From positions 1 through 64,000 of the forward strand of contig DWWP01000015.1 of the NCBI GenBank assembly GCA_019119635.1: DNA of 64,000 nt, given 5' to 3'. The position numbers and the translations under genes are program-made. This DNA comes from Candidatus Dietzia intestinipullorum (GTDB taxonomy: Bacteria; Actinomycetota; Actinomycetes; Mycobacteriales; Mycobacteriaceae). The notes beneath the pieces are model-generated. The model was not told the DNA's origin and searched no databases. It saw only the letters and a list, made by a program, of their open reading frames with translations. Every line of letters begins with the position of its first letter. The first letter of the stretch is position 1. Of the stretch, positions 39,887 through 42,792 are shown in pieces.

Positions 39887-40558
39887 TCAGTCGGCGTCGG
39901 TGGGGCGCACGTCCGTCGCCGGGTCGAGCTTGCGCAGGAGGCTCGGCGCGAGCTCCTTCTGGTCGATCTCGGCGAGCAGGCGGCGCGCCTCGTCGTCGTC
40001 GACCCCCTCGAAGATCCTCCCGATGGTCACCCCGTGCGCGGGCACGGAGACCACGGTGACCTCGTCGCCGGCCGAGACCGGCCCGGCGGCGAGCACGCGC
40101 GCGTACGCGCCCGGGCGGCCCTCCTCGGTGAACCGGCGCACCCACCTGGGGCGCTCGACGCGGCGGGCGAACGTCTGGCACGGGATGCGCGGCGTGGTGA
40201 TCTCCAGGGTCGGCCCCGCCGCACCCACCCGGAGCACCGTCCCGATCACCAGGCGCGAGGTGTCCACGTCGTCGAGGCGGAGGTTCTCACCGAAGTAGCC
40301 GGGCGGGATGGGGCCGCCGAATTCCCCGGACCAGGGCGCGACATCGGAATCCGACAGGAGGTAGACGGCCTTCCACGGCCCGCCGTGGTGCTCGCGGTCC
40401 GCCTGGACGTCGCCGTGCAGGCCGTACTCGCGGACGTGCACCGGCCCCTCGACCGGGCGCTTGTCGATCGCCGTCACTCCGACTCGCCCGCTGTCCGGGA
40501 GCAACTGCTCCACCACGCACACCGAGCGCACCGCGAACGACTGCCCTGCTGTGGTCAT
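39887..40558 (-). CDS. MOSC domain protein
   Basis: 'GLHGDVQADREHHGGPWKAVYLLS', 'GYFGENLRLDDVDTSRLVIGTVLRVG', 'EITTPRIPCQTFARR'. Confidence 0.9.
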   Translation of the reverse strand: MTTAGQSFAVRSVCVVEQLLPDSGRVGVTAIDKRPVEGPVHVREYGLHGDVQADREHHGGPWKAVYLLSDSDVAPWSGEFGGPIPPGYFGENLRLDDVDTSRLVIGTVLRVGAAGPTLEITTPRIPCQTFARRVERPRWVRRFTEEGRPGAYARVLAAGPVSAGDEVTVVSVPAHGVTIGRIFEGVDDDEARRLLAEIDQKELAPSLLRKLDPATDVRPTDAD

Positions 40559-41322
40559 TTGCCGAATCTCCTGTTCCGCGCGCCGTAGTCCCGCAACGCC
40601 CGCAGAAAATCCACGCGGCGGAACGACGGCCAGTACGCCTCGGTGAACCAGATCTCCGAGTACGCGCTCTGCCACAACATGAAGCCGGACAGTCGCTGTT
40701 CCCCGGAGGTGCGGATCACCAGGTCGGGATCCGGCTGCCCGGAGGTGTACAGGTGCTCGCCGATCGCCTCGACGGTGATCCCCTCGACCAGTTCCGCACC
40801 GGTCCTGCCCTCCGCGAGCAGCCGCTCCACCAGGTCCCTGGCGGCGTCGGCGATCTCGTGCCGGCCCCCGTACCCGATCGCCACGTTGACCTTGCACCCC
40901 GGCCGGCCCGCGCTGGTGCGCTCGGCCGCCTGGAGTCGCTCGGCCATCCAGTCGGGCAGGATCTCCGGGCGACCGACGGGCCGCACCTCCCAGTTGCGTT
41001 CGGGGCCGGTGATCTCGTCCACCACGTCCGCGATCACCTGGAGCAGCTCGTCGATCTCCTGCTGGTCGCGCGCCAGGTTCTCGGTGCTCAGCAGGTAGAT
41101 GGTGACCACCTCGACGCCGAGCTCGTCGCACCAGCCCAGCATCTCGGCGATCTTGACGGCCCCCGCCCGGTAGCCCTGGGCGACGTCGGTGAAGCCGGCC
41201 TCCTTGGCCCACCGCCGGTTGCCGTCCGCCATCACGGCGACGTGCCGGGGCAGCCTGGACTCGTCGAGCGAGGCGCGCAGGCGTTTCTCGTAGAGCGAGT
41301 ACAGAGGATGGGAGGCGACCAC
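40555..41322 (-). CDS. Isoprenyl (cis-prenyl) transferase, UppS family
   Basis: 'PRHVAVMADGNRRWAKEAGF', 'DLVIRTSGEQRLSGFMLWQSAYSEIWFTEAYWPSFR'. Confidence 0.95.
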   Translation of the reverse strand: MVASHPLYSLYEKRLRASLDESRLPRHVAVMADGNRRWAKEAGFTDVAQGYRAGAVKIAEMLGWCDELGVEVVTIYLLSTENLARDQQEIDELLQVIADVVDEITGPERNWEVRPVGRPEILPDWMAERLQAAERTSAGRPGCKVNVAIGYGGRHEIADAARDLVERLLAEGRTGAELVEGITVEAIGEHLYTSGQPDPDLVIRTSGEQRLSGFMLWQSAYSEIWFTEAYWPSFRRVDFLRALRDYGARNRRFGK

Positions 41323-41331
41323 GCGGAGATT

Positions 41332-42414
<1,083 letters not shown>

Positions 42415-42516
42415 GGCGTTCCAGCTCCTGGTGCTCTCGGTGCGACGGGCCGGATGCCGTGGTCCCTCGGTGCCCTCGACCGCACCCGGGCCCGCCTGGT
42501 TCTTCCAAATGGCGGA

Positions 42517-42542
42517 AGGCGGCGACCATGTGGTCACCGCCT
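42517..42542 (-). promoter_or_regulatory. Stem-loop (11-bp stem, one G-U) in DAHP synthase leader
   Basis: RNA 5' AGGCGGUGACC-ACAU-GGUCGCCGCCU 3'. Confidence 0.5.
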
Positions 42543-42569
42543 CTGGGCTCCGGGTGTCGGGACGTCCGT

Positions 42570-42647
42570 CTAGCGGACGCGTGCGCTCGCGGCGCGGGCT
42601 CCACCCGGAGCCCACATAAAGCGCCAATATGCGCGAGCGTTCGACAT
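42570..42647 (-). CDS. Candidate attenuator leader peptide (25 aa) upstream of DAHP synthase
   Basis: MSNARAYWRFMWAPGGARAASARVR*; GGTGGA SD-like 4 nt before ATG; aromatic cluster YWRFMW. Confidence 0.55.
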   Translation of the reverse strand: MSNARAYWRFMWAPGGARAASARVR

Positions 42648-42792
42648 GCGATCCACCGTAGCAGGGATCCGCCGTGCGCGCCGTCGACGGTCGGAGGGCC
42701 CCACGGGTGACGGGGAATACCATCGCCGTCCCTTTTGTTTGACATGTCAGCAAGTTAGGATGAAGCACGACAACCGACGGAAGGCCATCACC

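Follow-up and report, generated by a model that had tools for sequence, protein, structure and literature searches.

The window (the whole stretch of DNA that was analysed, 64,000 nucleotides) belongs to a Dietzia genome with an assembly of 2.95 Mb, whose closest named relatives are D. aerolata and D. alimentaria. Its minus strand carries a gene for a class I (aroFGH type) 3-deoxy-7-phosphoheptulonate (DAHP) synthase at positions 41332–42414, with GTG 42414 as start codon (TIGR00034, 493.7 bits, cut-off 173.2). The next gene downstream on that strand encodes an isoprenyl transferase (40555–41322; NF011403, 385.3 bits, cut-off 348) and, as the two genes are 9 nt apart, it is probably co-transcribed with the DAHP synthase gene. 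Upstream of the latter lies the ORF MSNARAYWRFMW... (42647–42570, minus strand), which runs from ATG 42647 to a stop codon at 42570 and encodes the leader peptide MSNARAYWRFMWAPGGARAASARVR. An initial sequence-only reading had proposed this ORF as an aromatic leader peptide upstream of DAHP synthase; its sequence, coordinates and peptide proved to be exact, and the TIGR00034 match confirms the identity of the gene. A divergent gene on the plus strand, from 42793 onwards, encodes a CE1758-family FMN-dependent luciferase-like monooxygenase (TIGR04036, 692 bits), the starts of this gene and of the leader being about 145 bp apart. A second DAHP synthase, of class II, is encoded elsewhere in the same genome (L001), and no aromatic leader is present in the region just upstream of it.

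The leader reads Y-W-R-F-M-W around the sensor codons TAT TGG CGC TTT (42629–42618, minus strand). When the 1283 ORF readings of 8–45 codons in the window were compared, only this ORF, in three nested start readings, contained at least four F, W or Y within six residues. The remark that TAT and TTT are rare codons in this DNA also stands: non-redundant leaders use TAT:TAC for Tyr at 62:1 and TTT:TTC for Phe at 53:7, whereas the DAHP synthase genes located behind the leaders, which served as the reference for codon bias, show 6:278 and 8:409. The aromatic run is kept among relatives. YWRFMW is present in 20 further loci of the genus Dietzia (L083–L102), and one divergent locus (L103) has YWFS.

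A -10 promoter box, TACGGT, is located at 42655–42660 on the minus strand, and the predicted transcription start is at or adjoining the leader ATG. A TANNNT motif precedes the leader start codon by 6–8 nt in 64 of 70 loci (7 nt, n = 48; 6 nt, n = 13; 8 nt, n = 3), the background frequency of the motif being 0.12% per position. As this distance is 6–7 nt in 61 of the 70 loci, the transcript probably begins with the leader start codon, and the leader mRNA would then be leaderless. It follows that the sequence GGTGGA, pointed out upstream of the ATG in the initial reading, is not a Shine–Dalgarno sequence; it corresponds instead to the end of the -10 box (42660–42655) plus its spacer. Leaderless leader peptides have been described in S. 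lividans (PMC8079986).

Downstream of the sensor codons, the RNA includes a series of segments with alternative partners, all on the minus strand. Segment A (TGGGCTCCGGGTG; 42602–42614), which codes for W-A-P-G, can pair with segment B (GGAGCCC; 42596–42602) to give a local hairpin at 42596–42613, or with segment C (CACCCGGAGCCC; 42545–42556), in this case through nucleotides 42602–42613. Hairpin D, with 11 bp, follows at 42517–42542. These three structures had been pointed out from the sequence, and comparison bears them out: the swap test for A:B gives p = 0.0002, and A:C and D show strong covariation across relatives. Paired cells for A:C and D together amount to 95.1% on the unfitted MAFFT alignment and to 97.6%, compared with 86.6% in shuffles, for 101 distinct rows on the alignment fitted to the model; slid-partner controls give 24.7–54.2%. 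Both sides changed in 18 of the 22 pairs. The sequence GGCTCCGG codes for A-P-G in most leaders (APGG) and for G-S-G in L189 and L279, and this use of two reading frames indicates that the RNA, and not the peptide, is conserved. An extension of A:C into D by means of GCTTT:AAGGC was considered by eye and dropped.

Further conserved alternative helices (C:E, E:F and F:G) extend beyond the region covered by the sequence-only reading, up to the ribosome-binding site of the DAHP synthase gene. They were spotted by eye downstream of D and tested afterwards. Segment E (GGCGGGCCCGGGTGC; 42482–42496) can pair with C or with segment F (...CACGGCATCCGGCCCGTC; 42444–42469), and F is in turn complementary to segment G (42406–42429), which comprises the Shine–Dalgarno sequence AGGAG (42429–42425) and the GTG start codon (42414–42412); the F:G duplex is predicted at -25.6 kcal/mol. 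The swap test was run on 54 loci; partners were permuted only inside each clade, and the zones did not overlap. The p values obtained are 0.0001 for A:C, 0.0002 for C:E, 0.0001 for E:F and 0.0001 for F:G, the helix that covers the ribosome-binding site. Six other combinations (A:E, A:G, C:F, C:G, E:G and L:C) were not significant in this test, and two pairs that had not been predicted gave weaker signals (A:F, p = 0.025; leader:E, p = 0.003). For C:E, comparison with dinucleotide-shuffled downstream DNA gave a mean z of -1.57 over 66 loci, with a Fisher p of 3.6e-21 that is uncorrected for kinship, and C types and E types correspond to each other across loci. Kinship among the sequences inflates every count given here, and the permutation within clades lessens this inflation but does not abolish it. 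Comparison of sequences supports the leader, the sensor codons and the -10 box, and likewise A:B, A:C, D, C:E, E:F and F:G as helices.

Across nine Dietzia genomes, A plus B and C are invariant (mean column identity 1.00 in both cases) and D reaches 0.97; outside the segments, identity is 0.56 upstream and 0.67–0.71 in the linkers. Homologous leaders and RNA occur across the Actinomycetes upstream of class I DAHP synthases, the leaders being present in versions such as YWRF..APGGA, RWYQRF, RYPYF, RWYAYF and YFWFSRPAPGG. The loci include some recorded as Mycobacterium, Mycolicibacterium, Williamsia, Gordonia, Rhodococcus and Nocardia, among others, and also as Amycolatopsis, Streptomyces, Catellatospora, Glycomyces, Isoptericola and Arthrobacter. 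Gene starts behind the leaders were assigned by script, and L147 and L149 were excluded because theirs were wrong. Two covariance models with rough E-values were used for the searches. Model R1, built from 21 loci, has matches in 54 of 399 genomes at the level of the order and in 65 of 396 at the level of the class, some of these matches being due to chance; the broader model R2 has matches in 66 of 121 genomes from family f31 and in 45 of 119 from another order, the weak matches including chance hits. In a phylum-wide sample, the sole match outside the class (L286) is false and corresponds to a tRNA plus a terminator. Hits L174, L175, L177–L179, L204, L207–L216 and L268–L276, and likewise L282, L283 and L286, were treated as chance matches, because neither a gene for DAHP synthase, the chorismate mutase fusion or tyrosyl-tRNA synthetase (TyrS) behind them nor a recognisable leader was found; ordinary terminators or tRNA regions would account for them. 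When region 42390–42700 was searched against Rfam 15, no family was found at the gathering score, nor any up to E = 1. Loci with the YFWFSRPAPGG leader type (L015, L018, L019, L022, L028, L029, L033 and L034, from Rhodococcus, Nocardia and Amycolatopsis) fall outside both models, and in them a C-like segment seemingly continues into the D hairpin.

The codon content of the leaders is matched to the gene that they are predicted to control. Among 100 distinct leaders upstream of DAHP synthase genes, Tyr is present in 99, Phe in 98 and Trp in 84. All three occur together in 81, so that a leader containing the three aromatics, initially regarded as distinctive, is the usual situation. In genome family f31, the same attenuator RNA precedes a gene for a fusion protein in which a chorismate mutase domain is joined to a partial DAHP_synth_1 region (Pfam). 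The leaders are of a Phe/Tyr type, exemplified by MNRSFAFIEPAPGSRS (loci L192, L194, L195, L197–L203, L205, L206, L219, L221–L233 and L235–L246); of 24 such leaders, all contain Phe, 16 Tyr and one Trp. As they all come from one family, shared descent confounds their poverty in Trp; Trp is present in two of the three DAHP synthase leaders recovered within f31. The attenuator is also found, rarely, before the gene for TyrS (L189/L260, G777:C21; L264, G925). These leaders have a single Tyr each, as in VLTRRVYPNGSGVSRSPARP, and the A and C segments of the two TyrS copies differ in a compensating manner (GGCTCCGG/CCGGAGCC versus GGCTCTGG/CCAGAGTC). Genome G777 has both a DAHP synthase copy and a TyrS copy, each with a different leader.

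We consider it likely that the element is a ribosome-mediated attenuator that senses how far the aromatic tRNAs are charged and regulates the class I DAHP synthase through the chain A:C/C:E/E:F/F:G; the stalling, the direction of the response and the effect on translation are parts that we infer. Transcription would begin at the leader ATG and the leader would be translated leaderless. If Tyr-, Trp- or Phe-tRNA were short, the ribosome would stall within TAT-TGG-CGC-TTT, just upstream of A; A would then pair with C, E:F would form, and G, with the ribosome-binding site and start codon of the DAHP synthase gene, would be left open. If the tRNAs were charged, the ribosome would reach the leader stop codon and A would be either in the local A:B hairpin behind the ribosome or masked. 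C would then pair with E, F would be free for G, and the DAHP synthase start would be hidden. D would be a constant hairpin between C and E which, where followed by a U-tract, could also terminate or pause transcription. The initial proposal of a ribosome-mediated attenuator with A:B and A:C as alternatives is supported in that part. A simple antiterminator/terminator switch does not fit the window copy, because D does not compete with A:C and lacks a U-tract. The proposal that the stalled ribosome covers the shared segment is not supported either: A begins 15 nt past the Tyr codon of YWRF and, from this geometry, a stall at the Tyr or Trp codon would leave A exposed.

Folding predictions were compared for RNAs with a ribosome stalled at the Tyr codon and with a ribosome at the stop codon. 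In 59 loci and before G is made, the stalled state gives A:C at 0.88 and 12.1 bp of E:F, and the finished state gives C:E at 0.52 and 5.6 bp of E:F; E:F is higher in the stalled state in 45 loci and lower in 2. When full RNAs are folded, F:G goes from 7.3 bp (stalled) to 10.1 bp (finished). The predicted switch is nearly complete in some loci, such as L110 (0.2 versus 14.0 bp of F:G). At the window locus F:G is strong in both states (14.8 versus 16.1 bp); equilibrium switching would therefore be slight, and the switch would depend on a co-transcriptional order in which E:F forms before G. To open the ribosome-binding site costs 8.4 kcal/mol in the stalled state and 9.2 kcal/mol in the finished state (p = 0.003), with 23 loci in the expected direction, 8 in the opposite one and a difference of 0.6 kcal/mol at the window locus. 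As this effect is modest at equilibrium, the output would require co-transcriptional folding or another step. The mean unpaired probability at the Shine–Dalgarno sequence shows no clear change between the two states. The translational output is the weakest link of the proposed mechanism.

The finding that D is predicted in both states (0.78 and 0.80) bears on classical transcription attenuation, the most probable of the alternatives, although an unlikely one. Stalling would in this case also make A:C, D would be an intrinsic terminator with controlled read-through, and E, F and G would be secondary. That D has a U-tract in several relatives is in keeping with this explanation, as is the failure to see E-F-G by eye in Corynebacterium, and a review presents aroR of C. 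glutamicum as controlling transcription (PMC11802643). However, D and A:C have no sequence in common, D is predicted alike whether or not the ribosome stalls, and in Dietzia it has no U-tract, the terminator scan of the window copy being negative. Moreover, E, F and G covary downstream of D, which would call for frequent read-through of D. The terminator scan is positive in L110 and L219. In some clades D may act on RNA polymerase as a pause site or terminator, and the U-tract found in several of them argues for a termination output there.

The composition of the spacer between the leader stop codon and C (42% C and 8% T in 59 loci) would suit a Rho-dependent mechanism in which, once the leader is translated, the bare C-rich stretch loads Rho, and A:C or a stalled ribosome hides it. 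We hold this to be very improbable, as the spacer is just about 12 nt long and E:F and F:G would be left unexplained. Arrest by the nascent peptide, with the conserved APGG stalling the ribosome alone or with an effector, would agree with the apparent conservation of YWRF..APGG as protein. Nevertheless, APGG is replaced by ALEG in Arthrobacter-type leaders and by GSG, from another frame, in L189 and L279, with the RNA pairing retained, and sensor content tracks the pathway branch, so that such arrest seems a shade more improbable still. That the leader is a chance ORF in an untranslated region, its conservation reflecting RNA or promoter structure only, has practically no likelihood: no point in its favour was found, and it is opposed by the codon bias (62:1 and 53:7), by amino acids that match the gene and by start codons located at the predicted transcription start.

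The known system closest to the window element is the aroR-aroF attenuator of Corynebacterium glutamicum, reported by Neshat et al. 2014. As in the window, an aromatic-codon leader lies there directly upstream of the DAHP synthase gene, and Corynebacterium loci match the same covariance model as Dietzia and carry A, C and D in an unchanged order. The residues differ, Phe-Tyr-Phe being reported for aroR and Y-W-R-F-M-W being found in the window leader; Corynebacterium leaders such as MRMWRFYFSKAPEAETS contain the reported F-Y-F. Inspection of the Corynebacterium loci by eye revealed no E, F or G. Since A, C and D are shared, the window element is best regarded as akin to aroR, with E, F and G as an added chain. 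The earlier mention of aromatic leader attenuation in C. glutamicum agrees with published work, in which aroR is located upstream of aroF. By the accounts in PMC11802643 and PMC4046766, the AroR leader with Phe-Tyr-Phe precedes aroF, which is raised under Phe limitation; the former describes a response to Phe and not to Tyr limitation. That review terms the attenuation transcriptional, and another source terms it translational (PMC7356990).

At the window locus, the features of a classical attenuator are found in part: the leader has codons for the pathway end products, but neither sequence shared by antiterminator and terminator nor a U-tract terminator is present. In E. coli trpL the terminator overlaps the antiterminator; D of the window does not overlap A:C, and the last helix of the window element covers the ribosome-binding site. 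In translation attenuators of the ermC type, leader stalling frees a Shine–Dalgarno sequence held in a hairpin, a drug being sensed with four segments. The window element would likewise free a ribosome-binding site upon stalling, although the signal would be tRNA charging and there would be one more switching step. The trp leader attenuators, trpL1 of Streptomyces lividans (PMC8079986) included, resemble it in pathway-product codons and alternative hairpins, and the S. lividans leader is leaderless. Mycobacteria reportedly have short ORFs that respond to cysteine (Canestrari et al., 2020, cited in PMC13236596); likened here by their description, these are also leaderless amino-acid-sensing ORFs of actinomycetes, but with a polycysteine leader. 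According to a comparative study of Actinobacteria from 2005, phenylalanine and tyrosine operons are not preceded by conserved RNA structures (PMC1262725). In the open-access literature, experimental knowledge of such a device was found for Corynebacterium only, and earlier descriptions may exist.

Chances appear evenly balanced that these elements make up a new Actinomycete RNA family in which stalling is relayed via four mutually exclusive helices and the rare-codon sensors have been adapted in evolution to the controlled gene (Trp/Tyr/Phe with DAHP synthase, Phe/Tyr with the chorismate mutase fusion, Tyr with TyrS). If the mechanism holds, the aromatic attenuator studied by experiment in C. 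glutamicum would be one form of a regulator that is widespread in Actinomycetes and whose sensors can be exchanged, the leaders would be a clear case of selection for rare Tyr and Phe codons as sensors, and the relay by which a stalled ribosome acts on a start site over 200 nt distant could be put to the test. Aromatic amino acid synthesis begins with DAHP synthase, which is also a target of metabolic engineering in Actinomycetes.

An additional small hairpin, CGTCCG-CTAGA-CGGACG (42563–42579, minus strand), judged by eye only, has the stop codon of the leader within its loop. Some compensating changes can be seen by eye among the Dietzia sequences, and similar stop-codon hairpins appear to be present in the f31 and Corynebacterium loci.
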